NCBI GenBank assembly: GCA_019044685.2
Contig: JAGTXX020000008.1
Span: 124,001-188,000 of the forward strand
Direction: 5' to 3'
Source: Nannochloris sp. 'desiccata'
Lineage: Eukaryota > Chlorophyta > Trebouxiophyceae > Chlorellales > Chlorellaceae
DNA length: 64,000 bases
Shown here: in pieces, positions 3,354 through 64,000 of the stretch
Position numbering within the stretch: the stretch's first letter is position 1
How the letters are laid out: every line of letters begins with the position of its first letter
The notes under the pieces: generated by a model
What the model saw: only the letters and a program-made list of their open reading frames with translations
Told to the model about the DNA's origin: nothing
Database searches by the model: none
Position numbers and translations under genes: made by a program

Positions 3354-4339
3354 TTTCTGGCGGCTCCCTTGGCGGGGCAGCCAGTGGAGCTATGACCAGG
3401 AGCACGGCAAACGTAACACAAACGATGATGATTTAAGAAGGATTTCAGCTTGGCAGCATCGGGATTGACAGCAGCGTCGCTGCAGTTGGCTTTGAGCGCA
3501 GCAACATCTTTAGGCTTGTAAAAGCCACCTTCTGGCAGGGGTGCAGCAGCGAGAGAGTTCAGCAGCACAGCAAACTCGGTCTTATCAGCAACCTTACCAC
3601 CAGGTTTGTATTGCCCAGTATCATTCGAGGATTTATGTCCTTTGCTGGGAGGACGATTGTCAGTTTTTGGTTGGGACGGTGGTTGGTAAGATTCAATCAG
3701 CGGTAAGGCCTTGCTCTGCAGCTCGGTCAAAGACATGTTAGAGTAATCGCGTCCATGCATAGAGTTCAATACTGTGCAAGCCGCATCGGGCATACAGGCC
3801 AGGAAGAAATAGTTGCTCATGGGAGCAGTAATCTTGAGCTCTCTCAAGGCTTCCTCAAACTCTCGCAGCTGCTGGGTCAAGGCGCCCTTCGTAAATCGCA
3901 AGGTCTTGAGCGTGCGAGCAGCTTGGCAGCGGGGATCTTCAGGATCGGAATAATGCAACTGAATCCACGCCTTGAGATTATCCCAAGAGTCGCGGATGGT
4001 GGGATCACGTCTCGTAGCTTCCGCCCAAGCTTCAATGATAGTGTCGTGGAAGGCACCGGTGACAGCTTCAGCTTGTTGTTTTGGGGTGAGGAATTCACCA
4101 GCAGTACCCCAAAACTCACGATCAGCACGAAGAATGAAGCCTTTAGTTGTGGTTTTCTCACCATCGAAAAGGCCTCCAGAGCGGATAGACTCAGAAACTT
4201 GCTTAATTAGCCGCACTTGGTTAGCGATGTTCTGGCCAGCAGCGTCAGTTGAGGGTTGTTGGTTCTCGAGCTCGGCAGCGGTTCCTTGCGTGTTGGTGCT
4301 CATGGTAGTGTATTCTAAACCAGAACGAAGTGTTGGCAT
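3350..4339 (-). CDS. Gag polyprotein, family A
   Basis: A 329-codon Gag of a Ty3/gypsy element. It forms the virus-like particle and binds the element's RNA. The C-terminus carries one CCHC zinc knuckle (CYVCRAPGHSSTGC, spacing C-x2-C-x4-H-x4-C), the nucleocapsid hallmark. The middle (YSDPEDPRCQAARTLKTLRF) resembles the capsid region of retrotransposon Gag. The stop codon overlaps the pol ATG as ATGA (3350-3353). That arrangement suggests pol translation by termination and reinitiation; I see no slippery heptamer at this junction. Confidence 0.85.
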   Translation of the reverse strand: MPTLRSGLEYTTMSTNTQGTAAELENQQPSTDAAGQNIANQVRLIKQVSESIRSGGLFDGEKTTTKGFILRADREFWGTAGEFLTPKQQAEAVTGAFHDTIIEAWAEATRRDPTIRDSWDNLKAWIQLHYSDPEDPRCQAARTLKTLRFTKGALTQQLREFEEALRELKITAPMSNYFFLACMPDAACTVLNSMHGRDYSNMSLTELQSKALPLIESYQPPSQPKTDNRPPSKGHKSSNDTGQYKPGGKVADKTEFAVLLNSLAAAPLPEGGFYKPKDVAALKANCSDAAVNPDAAKLKSFLNHHRLCYVCRAPGHSSTGCPAKGAARK

Positions 4340-4570
4340 ACAACAGAAAGGGCGTTAAGGTCAAATTGGGATTTTTGAAAAACTCGATTAAACAATTAGA
4401 TCGAGTTCCCCAGGACCTTGAAGCCAAAACCAGTGTAAGGTAATGACCTTTGTCAGTATCTCTATTCAGCTTATCAGCGTTACAGCAGTTCAGCAAACAA
4501 TTGAAAGATATCAGCCAAGAAGCAGCGAGGGTTTATAGAAGGAATCAGGGACAGCACATGTTGCACTTTA

Positions 4571-5507
4571 TGTTGCAGATGGGGTTCGTAGCCCCATGGG
4601 AGAAAGACCCATGTAGTGGCGGATAATGCCACCCGAAGGCATGTTACCTTTTGGGTCTGCAATAGTGGTTTCAGCTTCTCGGTTCGAACCTTACCGGAGT
4701 CTTTCTTTAAGAAAGGGAGGATGTTGCAGATGGGGTTCGTAGCCCCATGGGAGAAAGACCCATGTAGTGGCGGATAATGCCACCCGAAGGCATGTTACCT
4801 TTTGGGTCTGCAATAGTGGTTTCAGCTTCTCGGTTCGAACCTTACCGGAGTCTTTCTTTAAGAAAGGGAGGATGTTGCAGATGGGGTTCGTAGCCCCATG
4901 GGAGAAAGACCCATGTAGTGGCGGATAATGCCACCCGAAGGCATGTTACCTTTTGGGTCTGCAATAGTGGTTTCAGCTTCTCGGTTCGAACCTTACCGGA
5001 GTCTTTCTTTAAGAAAGGGAGGATGTTGCAGATGGGGTTCGTAGCCCCATGGGAAAAAGACCCATGTAGTGGCGGATAATGCCACCCGAAGGCATGTTAC
5101 CTTTTGGGTCTGCAATAGTTTAAAAAAGGTAACATGCCTTCGGGTGGCATTATCCGCCACTACATGGGTCTTTTTCCCATGGGGCTACGAACCCCATCTG
5201 CAACATCCTCCCTTTCTTAAAGAAAGACTCCGGTAAGGTTCGAACCGAGAAGCTGAAACCACTATTGCAGACCCAAAAGGTAACATGCCTTCGGGTGGCA
5301 TTATCCGCCACTACATGGGTCTTTCTCCCATGGGGCTACGAACCCCATCTGCAACATCCTCCCTTTCTTAGAGAAAGACTCCGGTAAGGTTCGAACCGAG
5401 AAGCTGAAACCACTATTGCAGACCCAAAAGGTAACATGCCTTCGGGTGGCATTATCCGCCACTACATGGGTCTTTCTCCCATGGGGCTACGAATCCCATC
5501 TGCAACA
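4571..5507. mobile_element. Miniature LTR element array, palindromic compound
   Basis: Four direct LTRs of 94 bp (4571-4664, 4722-4815, 4873-4966, 5024-5117) are separated by three 57-bp interiors, giving an exact 151-bp period. After a short junction (gtttaaa) comes an inverted half with one partial LTR (about 5123-5205) and two full LTRs (5263-5356, 5414-5507). Each interior begins G + TGGTTTCAGCTTC (PBS) and ends AAGAAAGGGAGGA (polypurine tract), so this is a TRIM-like non-autonomous LTR retrotransposon. The compound starts TGTTGCAG, ends CTGCAACA, and is flanked by CTTTA at 4566-4570 and 5508-5512. It was therefore probably integrated as one 937-bp unit. The right flank is itself a short CTTTA repeat, which slightly weakens the duplication call. 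Confidence 0.85.
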
Positions 5508-5983
5508 CTTTACTTTACTTTACTGTGGGTTACATAGCCATGCACCGCCAGCTGGCGGCGTCTATAAAACTCTTATAAGTCCCCAGCTTGGTGCTGCAGA
5601 ACACAAATGCAAGATAAATGACATACATACACGAAACCAAGGCTTTCTAAAAGAAATTTCAGAATGCAGAAGCACAGGCCAGGACTGAAAGTCCAGTAAC
5701 AGAAAAAAGTGTATTTGAATATTTTAGAAAAAAATAAATTTTGGGAGAGGGGCGGCAGGGAATAGAGTGCTCTGCCCCAGCTGCACTGCCTCAGGCTGGT
5801 GAGACGCAATACTGCCACCTAGCTTTCAGCAATAGCTATAGCATCACACACCTAAACCACACCTCAGCCCAGAGGAACCATGCCGAGACCGCCCCCAAGG
5901 GTAAAGGAGGGGGAGGAGAAGGAGCGGTGGCGGCGGTGGCGAAGATGAAGAATTAAAATTTGCCATTATAAATAGCTACAGAG
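5508..5983. other. No gene recognised; probably includes LINE 3' UTR
   Basis: It starts with three CTTTA units. It contains a purine-rich stretch near 5895-5945 (ggagggggaggagaag, then ggtggcggcggtggcg) that would be pyrimidine-rich in the sense of the adjacent minus-strand LINE, and could be its 3' UTR. No conserved coding sequence or clear poly(A)/poly(T) tail was found. Confidence 0.4.
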
Positions 5984-41725: not shown

Positions 41726-41834
<109 letters not shown>

Positions 41835-46812: not shown

Positions 46813-46893
46813 TGTTGCAGACCCAAAAGGTAACATGCCTTCGGGTGGCAGTTAATTAACCGCCACTACATGGGTCTTTTTTTCCCATCAACA
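46813..46893 (-). mobile_element. Solo LTR of the miniature element, 81-bp variant
   Basis: Flanked by the 5-bp direct repeat AACGT (46808-46812, 46894-46898). On the minus strand it matches the 94-bp miniature LTR, except that the first hairpin is missing and the GTGGC hairpin is longer, with a different loop (TTAATTAA). Both tips are TGTTG/CAACA-type. This is a diverged, independently inserted copy. Confidence 0.8.
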
Positions 46894-53621: not shown

Positions 53622-53889
53622 TTAACTACTACGGCTATCGAGTAAAATGAAATTTCTGTAATGCGGGTTAAAAGGCTGGGTTAAGCTTTAAAAAGACATT
53701 CAGGCGGATCCGGATGCATCCGAATATATAATTCAGAGAGCCCTCTCAAGTGTTATCTACTAACATCGATATCGATATGAGTAAAGGATGTTAGTATATG
53801 TAAAGTGCTTTTTCTGTCTTTATTACTTGTCTATTTTATCAATTAAAATATTTGAAGGGATACTGAGGGATCACACATGTGATGATACT
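53622..53889. other. 5' flank of the minus-strand glycosyltransferase gene
   Basis: About 270 bp with short palindromes (ggatccggatgcatcc; atcgatatcgat). No gene. Confidence 0.4.
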
Positions 53890-54132
53890 TATTGCAGACC
53901 CAAAAGGTAACATGCCTTCGGGTGGCATTATCCGCCACTACATGGGTCTTTTTCCCATGGGGCTACGAACCCCATCTGCAACATCCTCCCTTTCTTAAAG
54001 AAAGACTCCGGTAAGGTTCGAACCGAGAAGCTGAAACCACTATTGCAGACCCAAAAGGTAACATGCCTTCGGGTGGCATTATCCGCCACTACATGGGTCT
54101 TTTTCCCATGGGGCTACGAACCCCATCTGCAA
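53890..54132 (-). mobile_element. Miniature LTR element, complete single copy
   Basis: On the minus strand: LTR, 57-bp interior (53984-54040), LTR. The right LTR starts at 54041 and ends CTGCAA at 54132, two bases short of the usual CTGCAACA. The full unit would be 245 bp. The interior has PBS G+TGGTTTCAGCTTC and polypurine AAGAAAGGGAGGA. There is no coding capacity. No target duplication was found, perhaps because the damaged tip removed it. Confidence 0.9.
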
Positions 54133-54156
54133 GTCAAAAAAAAAAAATCTAGCTAT

Positions 54157-54205
54157 TTTGAGAGGGAACCAATTAACTCCTTTTGTTAATTGGCTCCCTC
54201 TCAAA
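54157..54205. repeat. Hairpin, 21-bp arms with 7-nt loop
   Basis: TTTGAGAGGGA...CAATTAAC (54157-54177), loop TCCTTTT, and GTTAATTGG...TCTCAAA (54185-54205), with one mismatch. An AT-rich palindrome, CGAAAAAAATATTTTTTTCG, follows at 54236-54255, flanked by ATCAAAG/CTTTGAT. Confidence 0.9.
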
Positions 54206-54255
54206 GTGCTGGGATTATATATCAAAGGTGTTCAGCGAAAAAAATATTTTTTTCG

Positions 54256-55092
54256 TTAGCATTCTTTGATCGACAAACTAAAACTCTCCCGTGCGTGCTT
54301 TCGCCGTCAGCGGGGGATGTATATTATAGCTCTAATTATATTGGAGCTATCTGAGGCCGCGCGGTCTCTAATAATGCGGTATTGGAGGAGTTATTTTCTC
54401 AACTAACCGGCAATTTAACAACACTTCAGAAATCAACCTCTGCACGTTGTTTCACAGATCGAAGATAGATGGAGAGCCTCATAACTCACCTCTATATTCG
54501 AGCTTCTTCAGCCCAGGGGTCCGCTGGACTCCATCACGCTGACTTTTTAACCCCCATATTCGGGTGCTCGCCATCGAGCCCCGATGCTGCCACCCACTGG
54601 GAGGCAGGATTTCTACCATCAATAATATTTTATTGATTAAGCTATCTCAGCAAAACAACGCAGGGAAACCTCGTTCCTCAACTGAGTAGTGATGAGAGGT
54701 CCAACATCATTCCCTTGCATGTGGTTGGTGGCGTTTTGCATATTCACCGTCATATGCCGTGGATTGGTGGTGGGCAGCTTTTTCTCTACTCTTTCAATAC
54801 TCGCGCAGAATTTCTGCACGACCTGGTTTTACTTGACTGATTTATCACCAATAAAACCCCTCTTTTTGTATGGTGCTTCTTATCATACCTCCCAGTGGCG
54901 TTTCTGAAACGCCGCTCTTGAACTGAAGATGTTACATGACTGAGCTCCTCTGGAGCATTAGCATATATAGGATGAAAGCTGAACAGGAGAAGAAGAATTG
55001 TATACCAGGAAACACATCTGCAAAGAAAACCACCACCAAAACGCTCTTTTCATTCAGACCCTGAAAAATGGATCTGGATCCTTTCCAGTGAC
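54256..55092. other. No gene recognised
   Basis: Moderately GC-rich stretch with small hairpins (gctctaat/attggagc; gaggccgcgcggtctc; ggcgtttctgaaacgcc). A minus-strand frame (54637-54800) coding KFCASIERVEKKLPTTNPRH ends before an AATAAAA signal-like sequence, and could be a small 3' exon, but nothing supports it further. Confidence 0.35.
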
Positions 55093-55417
55093 TATTGCAG
55101 ACCCAAAAGGTAATAGTGGTTTCAGCTTCTCGGTTCGAACCTTACCGGAGTCTTTCTTTAAGAAAGGGAGGATGTTGCAGATGGGGTTCGTAGCCCCATG
55201 GGAAAAAGACCCATGTAGTGGCGGATAATGCCACCCGAAGGCATGTTACCTTTTGGGTCTGCAATAGTGGTTTCAGCTTCTCGGTTCGAACCTTACCGGA
55301 GTCTTTCTTTAAGAAAGGGAGGATGTTGCAGATGGGGTTCGTAGCCCCATGGGAAAAAGACCCATGTAGTGGCGGATAATGCCACCCGAAGGCATGTTAC
55401 CTTTTGGGTCTGCAATA
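55093..55417 (+). mobile_element. Miniature LTR element array with inverted stub
   Basis: Begins with 21 bp of an inverted LTR end (tattgcagacccaaaagg), then directly a plus-strand interior (to 55172), LTR (55173-55266), interior (55267-55323) and LTR (55324-55417). Both outer tips are thus the LTR 3' end (TATTGCAG / CTGCAATA). No target duplication was found (flanks agtgac and ctcgg). Confidence 0.88.
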
Positions 55418-58195: not shown

Positions 58196-58387
58196 TGTTG
58201 CAGACGCTAGTCTTATGTAGCTTCAAGGAAGCTACCCTAAAAGGTATTTGTCTATAAGAGATTACAGAGTGGTTATTTATGTAATAATAAGAATAATCCG
58301 AAGGTAAAGAGAAGTCAGAGTAAATAATATTGGAAAAAGAAACCAGTGGGCGAAATGAGGGCGCAATGAACTTTGCGCCCTGCAACA
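58196..58387 (-). repeat. 3' LTR of H (192 bp)
   Basis: Plus-strand edges TGTTGCAGACGCTAG and GCGCCCTGCAACA. It differs from the LTR at 62920-63111 by about three bases. Confidence 0.92.
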
Positions 58388-58533
58388 TCCTCCCTTTCTT
58401 AAAGAGGAACCCAGATCTAGAGGCTAAAAACTAAACATGTCGTACGCATCTGTCCTACCGGTGACGCAACCTGAAAACCCAACGGGCAAAAACAGGACGT
58501 ACTGAATCCATGTGTAGGTGAGTGCTGCGACAA

Positions 58534-59022
58534 TCAACGACGAGAGCGCTTGCGGCGCTGCACAGGGATGGAAGCCTCATAAGCATCAACATCTGCTTGA
58601 ACACCAGATAAATTACTAGCAGGTTCATAGAGATTTTCATCAACAGGCCAACCTTTCCATTTTACGAGGTAGTCGCGATTGTTTTTAGGACCACGATGAG
58701 CCAAAATTTTCTCGAATTCATAAAGTGGTTGTCCGCTCTCGTAGCCAATGGGAGGTGGGCGAGGAAATTCACGATCCGTTTCCTGATAACGCTTCAATTG
58801 AGTAACGTTGAAGGTAGAAGAGGTGTTTTTAAGACGAGGAGGTAAGTGTAAAACATAAGCATTATCATTTAGCACTTCAGCGACTTCAAAAGGACCAACC
58901 CATTTGTGAGTCAATTTACCACGCGGTGCCTGGTAAAGACGGGAAGCATCGACCAAAACACGTTCACCAACTTCATATCTCACAAAGCGCCTGCGTTTGT
59001 TAACTTGGTTTGCATTTGCTCC
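58534..59022 (-). pseudogene. Integrase tail and chromodomain, H
   Basis: After a one-base frameshift near 59020 the frame reads NQVNKRRRFVRYEVGERVLV, then a chromodomain (YEFEKILAHRG, YLVKWKGWP, ENLYEPASNL; the aromatic before EP is Tyr instead of the usual Trp) and a basic tail (RRKRSRR). Confidence 0.85.
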
Positions 59023-60274
59023 TGGTTTTTAGCTAAATTAGTACGAGATTGAGTCAGAGTCTCAGTAATTCGAGCTAAAAAATCATCAACAGCAGGAGAA
59101 AGGCTGACAGTAGCACGCAGCAAGGAAGCAGGAGTATTGGGATTTTGACCATACAGCATGAAAAAAGGAGAAAAGCCTGTAGCCCTATTGACAGAGTTAT
59201 TGTAAGCAAACTCAAGAGCAACCAAATGCTCATCCCAATCATCCCTAGTAGATGGATTGACGTAAGCACGCAACATATCTTGAATAGTACGATTATGGCG
59301 TTCAGCTTGTCCATCAGACTGAGGATGGTAGGCAGCAGTCATATGCAAAGAAATGCCTAAATGATCCATCAAAGCACGCCAAAAATTGCTGGTAAAACGA
59401 GGATCTCGATCAGAAATAATGATTGAAGGAAGACCATAATGTCTGAAGACATTATTAAAGAAAAGCTCTGCTAATTGCCTTGCAGTCACAGTCATAGTAG
59501 TGGGAATAAAGACAGCAGCTTTACTCAAACGATCTACAATGGTGACAATTGCATCAAAACCACGAGGGGTGGCAGGTAAAGGACCAATCAAATCGATATG
59601 AATTTGCTCCCAGCGTCTACAAGGGATATCCAGAGAAGACAACAGCCCAGGAGTTACTTGATTTGAAGATTTGACCACTTGACAGGTAGGACATTCAGCA
59701 ACATAACGAGCAATATCTTCTCTCATACCAGGCCAGGTATATGTAGTACCAATAGCAGCAATAGTTTTATCTCTTCCAAGATGGCCAGCAATTGCGGCAT
59801 CATGATGATCATGAATAATTAAATCTTTTAAAGATTTAGAAGCAGGGACATAAATAAGCTTTTCACCATTCTTCTCTGCATAAATGAAGCCATCGTGCAG
59901 AGACCATTTGCTTGGACCAGCACCTCCAGTGAAGAAAGTCTCAGTAAGAGGATCAGAGACGTAAGCTACAGCAAATTCATGCAGAAGCTCAGGAGAAGGA
60001 CCAAGTGTTGAGATAGAATTCAGATTAGGAATTCTGCTCAAAGCATCAGCAACTACATTTGAACGACCAGGTTTGTATTTGATAATCAGATCATTACCAA
60101 ATTCAGCAAGAAATTGCAAATAACGATTGTGACGACGATTCACAAAGGTTTGAGTTTGAATAGAGATCAACGCTTGATGGTCAGTGTAGACTGTAGTAGG
60201 ATGGCCATGAATGTAATGTCTCCAAGCACGCAGAGCAAGGATAATAGCCAGAAACTCTTTATCATAAGTAGAAT
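58980..60274 (-). pseudogene. RNase H end and integrase, H
   Basis: Starts at the hAT insertion with the codons for TYDKEFLA, continues with the RNase H end (YTDHQALISIQ, ADALSRIPN), the integrase finger (HHDAAIAGHLG to CPTCQ, about 59800-59690) and the core (IDLIGPL, SDRDPRF, GQAERHN). The frame ends at 58980 after the frameshift near 59020. The catalytic acids are present. Confidence 0.88.
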
Positions 60275-61031
60275 CAGTGTTCCTGGGGCCTTAAATTTTT
60301 TTTGCGTGCCAGGCTCACTTTCTTTGTGTTTCATCACTCAAGCCCCAAATATTTTTTGCGTTAGCAATATTTTTTTTGCGCTGCGCGCGGCTTAGCGCTG
60401 CGCGCGGCCGTAGAACTTCTCAATTATTTGCTGTTACATGGAATTATTTAAGCTGCGTCGGTTAATCTGTCTGCTCAGCAAGCAATTCTTTGGTACGGTT
60501 CAACACCGCCACCACCTCCTTGGTTAATACGGCCCCCTTCTCCCCCATTATGGCCAACTCTGGGCCATTTATACTAATATGCATACACTTTTCAACTGTG
60601 TTAACCTTTAACCTATTTCTTAACTTGCTTTTTATGATATTCATTTTTGAAAAACCACGCTCGACGATGGCGGTGTTGAGCGGCAAAATCAAGTCATTTT
60701 GAGAAGAAGTAGGCGCTGCTTTTTGAGGGGATCGCTCAGATGCAGTGCGCTTGCTGCCGCCAGGCTGGCTCAACCAGGCGGAAAGTGGTCCCTTGGGGTT
60801 GTTACTACTCATAACTATAAGAATTAATGGTTTTTACAATGAAAAAATGAATTAACAGTGCACGCAAAGACCCAAAATCTCTTGTGTTTCGCCACTCTGC
60901 AGCACGCATAGCCCCGAAATTTTTTTGCGTGCTCCGCACGCAAACCTCTATTTTTTCTTGTGTTTCGCCCATTTTTTCTTGCGTTCTTCATACATGGCGC
61001 ACGCAAGAAATTTGCGGAGCCAGAAACACTG
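60275..61031 (-). mobile_element. Non-autonomous hAT element (757 bp)
   Basis: Terminal inverted repeats CAGTGTTCCTGGGGCC / GGAGCCAGAAACACTG and an 8-bp target duplication AGTAGAAT (60267-60274, 61032-61039), the hAT signature. Internal hairpin-rich repeats of gcgtgc/gcgcgcgg type lie near both ends. It splits the H pol inside RNase H. Confidence 0.92.
60462..60812 (-). pseudogene. hAT transposase deletion derivative
   Basis: A 116-codon frame whose N-terminus (MSSNNPKGPLSAWLSQPGG) looks like a transposase start and whose middle (LNTAIVERGFSKMNIIKSK, RLKVNTVEKCMHISINGPE) is the hAT C-terminal dimerisation region. The BED finger and catalytic core are missing, so an internal deletion has fused both ends. 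It cannot transpose itself but could compete for multimerisation. Confidence 0.78.
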
Positions 61032-62237
61032 AGTAGAATAATTGAGTTCAGCAGGTTTGAAAACGTGAGAAAGAAAAGCTATGGGATGATTCCCTTCTTG
61101 AGAAAGCACAGCACCAGCAGCAAAATCAGAAGCATCAGTGTGAATTTCAAATGGAAGATTGAAATCAGGAGGAGCAAGCACAGGAGCAGTAGTTAAAGCC
61201 AACTTTAACTGCTCAAAAGCTTCTTGATGACGAGGCAGCCACGTGAATATCTGATTTTTCCTGGTAATCTGATACAAGGGAATAGCTTTATGAGCAAAAT
61301 GCTCAACAAAATGGCGATAGAAAGTAGCCAATCCCAAGAAAGATTTGACTTGACTGGCAGTAGTAGGTACAGGCCAGTTTAAAATAGCATCAACTTTCTT
61401 TGGCAGCATGTGAATGCCTTCAGCAGTAAGCAAATAACCAACAAATTCAATTTCAGTTTGGAAAAACCGACACTTCTGCAGACCAGCATGTAACTGATGC
61501 TCACGTAAACGATCTAAAACATAACGAATATGTCTGTCATGTTCTTCTGCAGTTTTACTGAAAATGAGGATATCATCAAGGTAAACGACCAGAAATTTCT
61601 CCATGCTGTCAGCAAAAATGTTATTCATCAGCTTTTGGAAGGTGGCAGGAGCATTAGTAAGTCCAAAAGGCATAACACGAAACTCGTAATGACCATATCG
61701 AGTATTAAAAGCCGTTTTAGGGATGTCTTCTTCCTTGACTCGAACTTGATAATAAGCAGATTTCAAGTCAATCTTACTAAAATAACGAGCACCTTCCAGG
61801 CAATTGAGCAACTCATCCATTTTAGGCAAAGGAAATTTATCCTTAATGGTAATTTTATTGAGAGCTCTGTAGTCAACACACATACGGAGTGTACCATCTT
61901 GCTTTGGAACAAAAATGACAGGAGCAGCATATGGAGAAGAAGAGGGTTGAATAATGCCAGCATCGATCATTTCTCGAATTTGCTTCTGTAATTCTTCCAT
62001 TTCCCTAGGAGAAATCCTATAAGGACGTTGACAGGGAGGCATATGACCAGGCTCCAAAGGAATTTCATGCTGAACATTCCTTTCAGGAGGGAAGAAAGTA
62101 CGCAAATCAAATACATCGAAATATTCTTTTTCATAAGTTTCATGAATATTAGCCCAAGGATCTTCATCTGTAGTAAGACGAGGGATTAGATCACCATCTT
62201 CATCAAACTCTTCATCATCATCATCATTAGTAGCAGC
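61032..62237 (-). pseudogene. RT and start of RNase H, H
   Basis: Reverse transcriptase with [35 protein letters not shown] (about 61580), then RNase H start (IHTDASDFAAGAVLS). Codes up to AELNYST, where the hAT element interrupts. Upstream, an Asp/Glu-rich linker (NDDDDEEFDEDGD) is separated from the protease frame by a frameshift and stop near 62240. Confidence 0.88.
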
Positions 62238-62595
62238 CTAGAATTCACAGCAGAAGGTGGAGGAGAAGGTTCAACCAGATTCAGATTGATTAAGAAAACA
62301 GGAGTATTTTTATTACGCAGAATTCTTGCCAGCTGAGTAGCAGAGATAAGAGAAGTCTCAGAAGTAGGGGCAGCAGGAGCAGCGTCCGCTCCAGAAGTGG
62401 ACAACAAGATCTGCTGATCTTGATAAACAAATTCCACAGTATTAAGTCGCCAATCAATGTGGGGATTGTGGAATTCCAACCAATTCTTGCCAAGAATAAT
62501 ACCTACAGCAGAATCAACATCCAAGACGAACATTCGTACAGACTGTCGATAAGTACTAATACGCAGAGGCACTGTGACTGTTTCACGACATTGAT
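62186..62595 (-). pseudogene. Protease C-terminal part, H
   Basis: Contains VPLRISTYRQSVRMFVLDV and VGIILGKNWLEFHNPHIDW (the second half of a retropepsin-like fold), then a linker. The compound insertion at 62596 separates it from the catalytic DGGA motif at 63112 onward. After about 62240 the frame runs into a Met/Lys run by frameshift. Confidence 0.8.
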
Positions 62596-63111
62596 TGTTG
62601 CAGATGGGGTTCGTAGCCCCATGGGAAAAAGACCCATGTAGTGGCGGATAATGCCACCCGAAGGCATGTTACCTTTTGGGTCTGCAATAGTGGTTTCAGC
62701 TTCTCGGTTCGAACCTTACCGGAGTCTTTCTTTAAGAAAGGGAGGATGTTGCAGATGGGGTTCGTACTATTGCAGACCCAAAAGGTAACATGCCTTCGGG
62801 TGGCATTATCCGCCACTACATGGGTCTTTTTCCCATGGGGCTACGAACCCCATCTGCAACATCCTCCCTTTCTTAAAGAAAGACTCCGGTAAGGTTCGAA
62901 CCGAGAAGCTGAAACCACTTGTTGCAGACGCTAGTCTTATGTAGCTTCAAGGAAGCTACCCTAAAAGGTATTTGTCTATAAGAGATTACAGAGTGGTTAT
63001 TTATATAATAATAGGAATAATCCGAAGGTAAAGAGAAGTCAGAGTAAATAATATTGGAAAAAGAAACCAGTGGGCGAAATGAGGGCGTAATGAACTTTGC
63101 GCCCTGCAACA
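62596..63111. mobile_element. Chimeric compound: miniature LTR element plus H-type LTR
   Basis: Order: plus-strand miniature LTR (62596-62689), interior (62690-62746), 20 bp of a second LTR (62747-62766), then an inverted LTR (62768-62861), an inverted interior (62862-62918) and a 192-bp H-type LTR (62920-63111). The whole is flanked by TTGAT (62591-62595, 63112-63116), so it entered H as one unit. Confidence 0.88.
62920..63111 (-). repeat. H-type LTR within the compound (192 bp)
   Basis: Plus-strand edges TGTTGCAGACGCTAG and GCGCCCTGCAACA; matches 58196-58387 with about three differences. Its outer tip forms the right end of the compound. Confidence 0.92.
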
Positions 63112-63393
63112 TTGATAGGTACTACCATTAGCCAGTCGTACAGTGATAGATCCAGCACGAGTACGCGGGTGAAGGTTAAGACGTTTTGCACACTTTCCAG
63201 TAATGAAAGTAGCACCAGCACCACCATCAATCATGACTTTGACAGGAAGAGTACTCACGGAACCTTCCATAATCAATAATTGATTAGCACAAGTAGGAAC
63301 ACCATCAGCAGAAGTAATCATGTCTGTGGACACAACACCCAAATCTATGACTGCAAGATTGAGTAGGAGAAAGAAAGAAACATTTGAAATTAA
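63112..63393 (-). pseudogene. Protease N-terminal part, H
   Basis: The minus-strand frame is open from about 63393 and reads VIDLGVVSTDMITS, then KVMIDGGAGATFITGKCAKRL, the retropepsin catalytic loop with D-G-G in place of D-[ST]-G. It ends at the compound insertion (NGSTYQ). A TTGCAG near 63350 would also suit a splice acceptor. No Gag is seen upstream. Confidence 0.7.
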
Positions 63394-64000
63394 TCATTCG
63401 TACAATGAATACCAAATTTCAAATTACTTGATGCAAGCACAGCAGCAAAAAGTACGAAAGTACTGTATATCTTCTCAGTGCAAGTACACAGCAACAGAGA
63501 TCAATGATTTAGATGAGAGTTGCAGCATTTGATGCATATCAGCAATCAAATAAAGAGAGTTTTGGTGCAAGATCTTGAAGATCCTTGAAACAGCAACCAA
63601 ACAAATGATGATTTGAAGTGAGGAAGTTTCTTGGATCTCCTCCATTTACTATGAAAGGAGCCAGAATGGGTACCTAGGTTACATTACTGTTACAGCATTG
63701 TCATTTGTGTGCCAGATCAAATAACTATTAGGGCCAGTAATAGTTTATGCAGGCAAAAACACAAACCAATACACAGTAAAAAGGTGATGATATTCAGGCA
63801 TACGCAGAGTATGTACCATCATCAAAAGAAACATTGCTAAGAACAAGCAATAATCATCATCAAACAGCAACAAAAATATCATCTTTACGCATCATTAAGA
63901 AGAGATAAGAAAAAGAAAAGAAGAAAAACAAGATATTTTGCAGCAGCAAGAAATATCTTCAAGAGGAAAGACCAAAGTGACAGTAATGCCAGTTCATTGA
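63394..64000. other. No gene recognised; possibly H leader or unrelated AT-rich DNA
   Basis: AT- and A-rich sequence with many cagca/aagaaa words. I see no Gag, LTR edge or conserved coding region. Family H's 5' end may be here in degraded form or beyond the window. Confidence 0.35.

Follow-up and report, generated by a model that had tools for sequence, protein, structure and literature searches.

A TRIM-type non-autonomous LTR element without genes is present in the green alga Nannochloris sp. 'desiccata', and this element, whose interior is hardly more than a primer binding site (PBS), an anti-T-arm stretch and a polypurine tract (PPT), is very probably copied and integrated in trans by a chromodomain Ty3/gypsy element resident in the same genome. 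The reading was drawn from sequence, namely from LTR ends, PBS and PPT shared by the two elements, and from 5-bp target-site duplications (TSDs), LTR pairs, solo LTRs and hybrids of the two elements enclosed by single TSDs. The algal element is a real, unusually stripped TRIM, and its best value lies in its hybrids with the helper. The window (the whole 64,000-nt stretch of DNA analysed) lies within contig C8, and copies were searched for in the 21.55-Mb, 18-contig assembly, the counts from these searches of its own genome being lower bounds. An SRP68 frame of this assembly has 54-57% identity with four Chlorella proteins and one from Parachlorella, the nearest of those that carry an organism name, 38-39% with Monoraphidium and Volvox, and up to 92% with metagenome proteins that carry none; this frame and a TTTAGGG telomere at one contig end fit a small green alga near Chlorellales. 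Coordinates in the window are collected in Table 1.

In minus-strand orientation the unit comprises two 94-bp LTRs (TGTTGCAG...TCTGCAATA) on either side of a 57-bp interior. The copy at 53890-54132 contains 92-nt direct repeats, 100% identical and 151 bp apart (53890-53981 and 54041-54132), and TRF detected three indel-free arrays with a period of 151 bp (4570-5119, 5124-5507 and 55112-55417); the preliminary description had given these unit dimensions and an exact period in three arrays, and both were borne out, as was its assignment to a dispersed element of the LTR-retrotransposon type with two short LTRs, a PBS and a PPT. The interior begins with G followed by TGGTTTCAGCTTC, the PBS TGGTTTCAGCTT coming directly after this G, and ends with TTTAAGAAAGGGAGGA; AAGAAAGGGAGGA abuts the next LTR. 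Within the 57-bp interior, 44 bases were assigned (1 spacer, 12 PBS, 13 anti-T-arm, 18 PPT region), the remaining 13 being the 3 mismatched bases between the PBS and the anti-T-arm match and 10 others. An interior of almost only PBS and PPT had been proposed at the outset; both are there, and the tRNA-Met primer had been missed. Classical TRIM interiors span 100-300 bp, and 57 bp falls below this range. The LTR termini are TG...TA (CAATA) in young copies and TG...CA (CAACA) in two old copies; the TA end of the young copies differs from the canonical CA, which counts against the preferred explanation.

Table 1. Positions of the TRIM copies, helper DNA and related features in the window
Feature	Positions	Strand	Details
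TRIM copy	53890-54132	-	LTR 54041-54132 (92 nt), interior 53984-54040, LTR 53890-53983 (94 nt)
Primer binding site, 12 nt TGGTTTCAGCTT	54028-54039	-	complementary to tRNA-Met 3' end including CCA
Anti-T-arm stretch, 13-nt GGTTCGAACCTTA	54012-54024	-	T-arm complement of the PBS-matching tRNA-Met, collinear
Polypurine tract region, 18-nt TCTTTAAGAAAGGGAGGA	53984-54001	-	compared with helper PPTs
Old, partly deleted solo LTR	46813-46893	-	TSD ACGTT (C8:170813)
Array composite C8:128571	4571-5507	.	TSD CTTTA at 4566-4570 and 5508-5512
TRIM array	55093-55417	+	starts with inverted 21-nt LTR end; both outer ends are U5
Dispersed repeat X	54137-55091	.	about 0.95 kb; also on C10 and C1
Composite C8:186596-187111	62596-63111	.	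TSD TTGAT at 62591-62595 and 63112-63116
Helper-type 192-bp LTR at hybrid joint	62920-63111	-	PBS joint to TRIM interior, CAACA-A-GTGGTTTC
Helper chromovirus copy	58196-64000	-	3' LTR 58196-58387, PPT 58388-58405, TSD CTTGA

A 245-bp query returned at least 22 matches in the genome, which fall into 13 loci; C8 has eight of these, and C1, C3, C6, C14 and C16 have one each. With a 19-position interior pattern and one mismatch allowed, there were 18 genome matches, all exact, and 0 for the reversed control; these two counts exclude a chance origin. The five loci found in the window, at 4571-5507, 46813-46893, 53890-54132, 55093-55417 and 62596-63111, agree with the at least five loci in 64 kb reported earlier. 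Exact-pattern scans of IMG/VR and GTDB contigs gave 0 matches each.

Exact 5-bp TSDs flank 10 of the 13 loci (the C8:52672 array, C8:128571, C8:186596, C8:218958, the old copy at C8:85367, C8:170813, and the loci on C14, C6, C3 and C1), a single exact abutting 5-mer having a probability of 0.0012 by chance in the window. Two loci, 53890-54132 and 55093-55417, have none, and this counts against the preferred explanation, as does the ambiguous locus on C16, where the left joint shares CCGC with the helper, the right flank reads CCGCC and there is no clean 5-bp TSD. The preliminary description had asked whether most copies lack such duplications and whether copies are always embedded in a longer conserved element; duplications are present at the 10 loci above, and a single unit, arrays and solo LTRs occur outside any longer conserved element. 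The C14 copy is a clean single unit with a TSD and has the same extra T in both LTRs, which is absent from the other 26 LTR copies listed; a shared change of this kind is expected when one RNA rebuilds both LTRs in reverse transcription. TRIM LTR pairs are identical or have a shared private change; the pair on C1, which differs at one base (C24A), is a point against the preferred explanation. Young solo LTRs, each with a TSD, are found on C6 and C3, and a paralogous site on C3, empty and with the target present once, matches the joined flanks of the C6 solo at 90% over 240 bp.

When the T-arm was combined with AGCTGAA, the pattern led to one tRNA gene, a tRNA-Met(CAT) on C4, which we take to be of the initiator type from its GGG/CCC anticodon stem. 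The complement of this tRNA with CCA is TGGTTTCAGCTTAAGGGTTCGAACCTTAGACC and the TRIM reads TGGTTTCAGCTTCTCGGTTCGAACCTTACC, giving 12 matches, 3 mismatches and 13 matches. That the PBS match is 12 nt and not 18, with 3 bases separating it from the T-arm match, counts against the preferred explanation. The 13-nt match passes tRNA position 58 and may therefore be a second contact, not a copy of the primer; second contacts with the primer tRNA are known for Ty1 and Ty3. The same tRNA (L025 1501-1572; C4:563192-563263) has a U1-A72 pair despite its initiator-like anticodon stem.

The genome pattern with the full interior end matched only 18 interiors and no tRNA. A looser T-arm pattern gave 33 matches, made up of the 18 interiors, the C4 tRNA-Met, one exact match on C11 and 13 matches with one mismatch (reversed control, 8). 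The exact match on C11 lies inside an SRP68 gene, and ARAGORN found no tRNA in 10 of the 13 one-mismatch matches, the other three being without a locus. In the Rfam tRNA survey of the genome, 63 of 825 candidates were scored. A self-priming PBS of the Tf1 kind was also rejected, as by eye the helper LTR contained no complement of TGGTTTCAGCTT.

Four TRIM loci adjoin a 192-bp LTR that starts TGTTGCAGGGCGC and ends CGTCTGCAA(C/T)A. This helper LTR (TGTTGCAG...TCTGCAA(C/T)A, both CAACA- and CAATA-type termini occurring) has its outer 8-9 bp in common with the TRIM LTR and was found at 18 places in the genome. Full copies of the helper number two, of 5.9 kb (L032 and L033). Identity of the LTR pairs was 192/192 in L032, 192/192 in L033 and 191/192 in L035. 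The TSD is TCGAG in L033, CTTGA in L034, a copy split by a composite, and ATTCC in the internally shorter L035. The helper copy in the window extends beyond the window end and hosts the composite at 62596-63111. L033 has a gag-like frame of 364 aa, whose zinc knuckle only just reaches the threshold score, and a pol frame of 1176 aa in which Pfam domains follow in the order protease, reverse transcriptase (RT), RNase H, integrase and C-terminal chromodomain, which makes the helper a Ty3/gypsy chromovirus; in L032 pol is broken up into two ORFs, one of 391 and one of 799 aa, and this counts against the preferred explanation.

In 4/4 helper copies with a readable PBS the sequence is LTR-AC-TGGTTTCAGCTT (2 bp from the LTR), with variable sequence thereafter. 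The 18-nt PPT region of the TRIM is identical in 6 of the 7 helper PPTs found and matches at 17/18 in L035; copies L037, L038 and L039, which are fragmentary or old, yielded no PPT. The chromodomain Ty3/gypsy element is likely to be the helper of the TRIM in this genome, and its mobilisation of the TRIM in trans is suggested by the shared signals together with the hybrid insertions described below.

Other helper-related DNA was noted elsewhere in the genome. At the end of C1 (L014 4300-4504), a TTTAGGG telomere is fused to a truncated helper, as if a broken end had been healed there. A helper fragment on C16 (L058 715-5561) contains an insertion of about 4.8 kb with about 20 bp repeated at its ends, perhaps a LINE. 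On C9 (L038 1086-1281) there is an old helper-like LTR, 71% to the helper LTR, with TACCTTTTGGGT identical in the TRIM LTR; this sharing is a possible trace of the origin of the TRIM.

Three composites join TRIM and helper DNA, each within one 5-bp TSD, and one of them is jointed at the PBS. At C8:218958-225123, a full helper, ACTGGA and a TRIM LTR-interior-LTR lie within one TSD (ACCTA); ACTGG is the first five interior bases of the helper, and the joint thus resembles a U5 end that has kept PBS bases and is ligated to the U3 end of a TRIM. The composite at 62596-63111 is a TRIM LTR, an interior and 20 nt of LTR followed by an inverted TRIM LTR, TRIM interior, A and helper LTR, and sits inside a helper copy, the uninterrupted form of which is seen in L032. 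At its hybrid joint the TRIM interior starts from its G, and the joint position is the PBS common to both elements, the site of plus-strand strong-stop DNA transfer, and the simplest account would be a strong-stop transfer from the helper to the TRIM minus strand. The third composite, C1:1044661-1046823 (2163 bp; TSD AAAAG), consists of TRIM, helper 3' part, helper LTR, A and TRIM, and lies inside a gypsy RT gene, the RT frame being continuous through the joined flanks; C1:1044661 and C1:1046579 are one composite, not two insertions. Its helper part begins at about base 4048 of the helper interior, just past a purine-rich run (GAAGAGAAGAATG), as a secondary plus-strand start might. The locus on C16 consists of helper 3' part, helper LTR, A, TRIM interior and TRIM LTR, with the PBS joint as in 62596-63111. 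The TRIM-type element had been recognised in the preliminary description; the helper and the TRIM-helper hybrids had been missed.

The array at 4571-5507 consists of four LTRs and three interiors, tail to tail with an inverted set of three LTRs (one partial) and two interiors; the U5 ends face each other, and LTRs with and without A32G are mixed. That satellite-like arrays grew by unequal crossing over from rare insertions, with composites arising by later recombination between nearby LTRs, would agree with LTRs shared in perfect register within arrays and with the placing of 8/13 loci on a contig that makes up 2.6% of the genome. This is nevertheless very unlikely: single 5-bp TSDs enclose a tail-to-tail array and TRIM-helper joints with extra bases (GTTTAA; A; ACTGGA); two arrays combine different LTR variants inside a single TSD (in L010, LTRs that have or lack A32G; in L009, C64A and a deletion of 4 nt); and a single unit and solos with TSDs are found on other contigs. 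The single TSDs of C8:218958, C8:186596, C1 and 4571-5507 argue for joining before integration, for which unequal crossing over alone would be insufficient. The three TRIM-helper composites are the strongest evidence on mechanism and would imply co-packaging, intermolecular plus-strand transfer and pre-integration joining.

The copy at 53890-54132 had been presented as a 245-bp example. Its structure stands; its length is 243 bp, since the bases at 54133-54134 differ from the CA that intact LTRs have and the unit therefore stops at 54132, and the two outermost U3-end bases are missing. No TSD was found in its flanks (ATGATACT and GTCAAAAA) or for the TRIM array at 55093-55417. The copy, repeat X and this array form a patchwork with U5 ends outward, for which no TSD was found either for the TRIM parts singly or for the whole. 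Repeat X matches C10 at 54137-54919 (97.6% over 784 columns) and 55042-55091, the C10 match stopping at most 5 bp from both TRIM junctions, and its positions 54401-54777 match the flanks of the C1 helper; the empty site of helper L033 is present within the repeat X of the window. The patchwork may have arisen by break repair with captured cDNA. Repeat X also contains a 21-bp hairpin (54157-54205), and elsewhere in the window there is a perfect CTAT microsatellite of 27 copies (41726-41834).

By eye, no TATA-like box was found in the 94-bp TRIM LTR, and the helper LTR has TATATAAATA. This counts against the preferred explanation and would suit one in which RNA polymerase III makes the RNA, as proposed for TRIMp3 elements, from a B box in the interior and with a cloverleaf-like LTR fold. 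The interior GGTTCGAACC is palindromic and can hence be read as a B box too, GGTTCGAACCT agreeing with the consensus of the B-box core. The predicted fold of the TRIM LTR has a closing stem from the terminal inverted repeat and four hairpins; for the LTR of the copy at 53890-54132 with two interior bases it reached -38.8 kcal/mol (z -3.6, 0/200 shuffles), and for the intact 94-nt LTR z was -3.7 (1/300 shuffles). The fold leans largely on the terminal inverted repeat, however (z -1.9 and 11/300 when this was removed), and the helper LTR folds equally strongly (z -4.3); for the cloverleaf-like fold, therefore, only a shared architecture of terminal repeat with a hairpin right behind it is claimed. 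TTTT stands between the LTR start and the interior, a convincing A box was not found by eye, and Rfam at E up to 10 gave no tRNA, 5S or ribozyme family match in 53880-54145, the two matches obtained (E 1.1 and 1.3; a CRISPR repeat and a human lncRNA) being taken as chance. Transcription by RNA polymerase III is unlikely on these grounds, and an origin from Helenus or a tRNA was rejected for want of a tRNA match in the same search. The head-to-tail period of 151 nt and the strong RNA fold would also be expected of a retrozyme or other self-cleaving circular-RNA element with 151-nt circles, but this is barely credible, since Rfam detected no hammerhead or other ribozyme in the window at gathering or in 53880-54145 at E up to 10.

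In the trans-mobilisation preferred here, the TRIM RNA would be packaged together with the helper RNA, tRNA-Met would prime minus-strand synthesis and the PPT would prime plus-strand synthesis. The plus-strand strong-stop DNA of the helper would sometimes anneal to TRIM minus-strand DNA at the shared 12-nt PBS, yielding a helper LTR joined to TRIM interior and TRIM LTR. Other cDNAs would form tandem or inverted concatemers by end-joining or recombination ahead of integration, and the helper integrase would insert the outer ends of the concatemers. We lean, by a little, towards a more general proposal, that a near-minimal replicon (integrase ends, a two-part tRNA-Met contact and a PPT) may suffice for mobilisation in trans by a chromovirus, its cDNA repeatedly becoming linked with that of the helper inside the particle, by PBS plus-strand transfer or end-joining, and the composites being integrated as single units.

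With most of the bases in so short an interior assigned, the element sets a natural lower limit to the cis signals required by an LTR retrotransposon, namely the LTR ends, the PBS, the PPT and perhaps a further contact with the tRNA. The genome also contains a likely helper, one copy of which combines long open frames, gag-like and pol, with LTRs that are identical. Hybrids of TRIM and helper in single TSDs would be genomic traces of co-packaging and intermolecular strand transfer, which to our knowledge have mostly been studied in engineered systems.

Among known systems, Dasheng and RIRE2 of rice are a non-autonomous element with a Ty3/gypsy partner, and chimeras of the two occur; Dasheng is much larger. 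A rust-fungus genome paper mentions TRIMs (PMC10067951), and in the accessible literature on green-algal TRIMs, smallest TRIMs, TRIM template switching and Ty1 multimers nothing was closer than the systems cited. Tandem and inverted TRIM arrays with a single TSD are already described in maize, as TA-TRIM arrays of Zma-SMART (PMC4717578). Pol III transcription has been proposed or shown for Helenus, Ajax and Cassandra (TRIMp3), which resemble the algal element in small LTRs, PBS, PPT and tRNA-iMet among their primers, and fungal and plant Helenus elements also in the 5-bp TSD (PMC10886601). They differ in LTR sequence derived from tRNA or 5S, which was not found in the algal TRIM. Helenus elements are moreover 311-1263 bp long, Helenus-1_SMo having a 120-bp LTR and an 85-bp interior (PMC10886601), and fungal Helenus is linked to Copia, whereas the algal helper is Ty3/gypsy. 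The SMART element FRetro129 (292 bp, 85-bp LTRs, 122-bp interior) likewise has a 5-bp TSD and a PBS and PPT similar to those of its putative helper FRetro64; unlike the algal TRIM, it shares its interior (96%) and an 11-bp LTR motif with the helper, and hybrid insertions are not among the features described in the available part of that paper (PMC3281118). The preliminary description had placed 245 bp at or below the smallest known size, which does not hold, as CcaRetroS9, a pigeon pea TRIM with 52-bp LTRs, is 233 bp long (PMC4717578). CcaRetroS9 is likewise a TRIM under 250 bp, but it belongs to a flowering plant and its interior is near 129 bp by subtraction. Among the TRIMs described in the text of the papers cited, the algal element is thus second to CcaRetroS9 in total size, and its 57-bp interior is the shortest.
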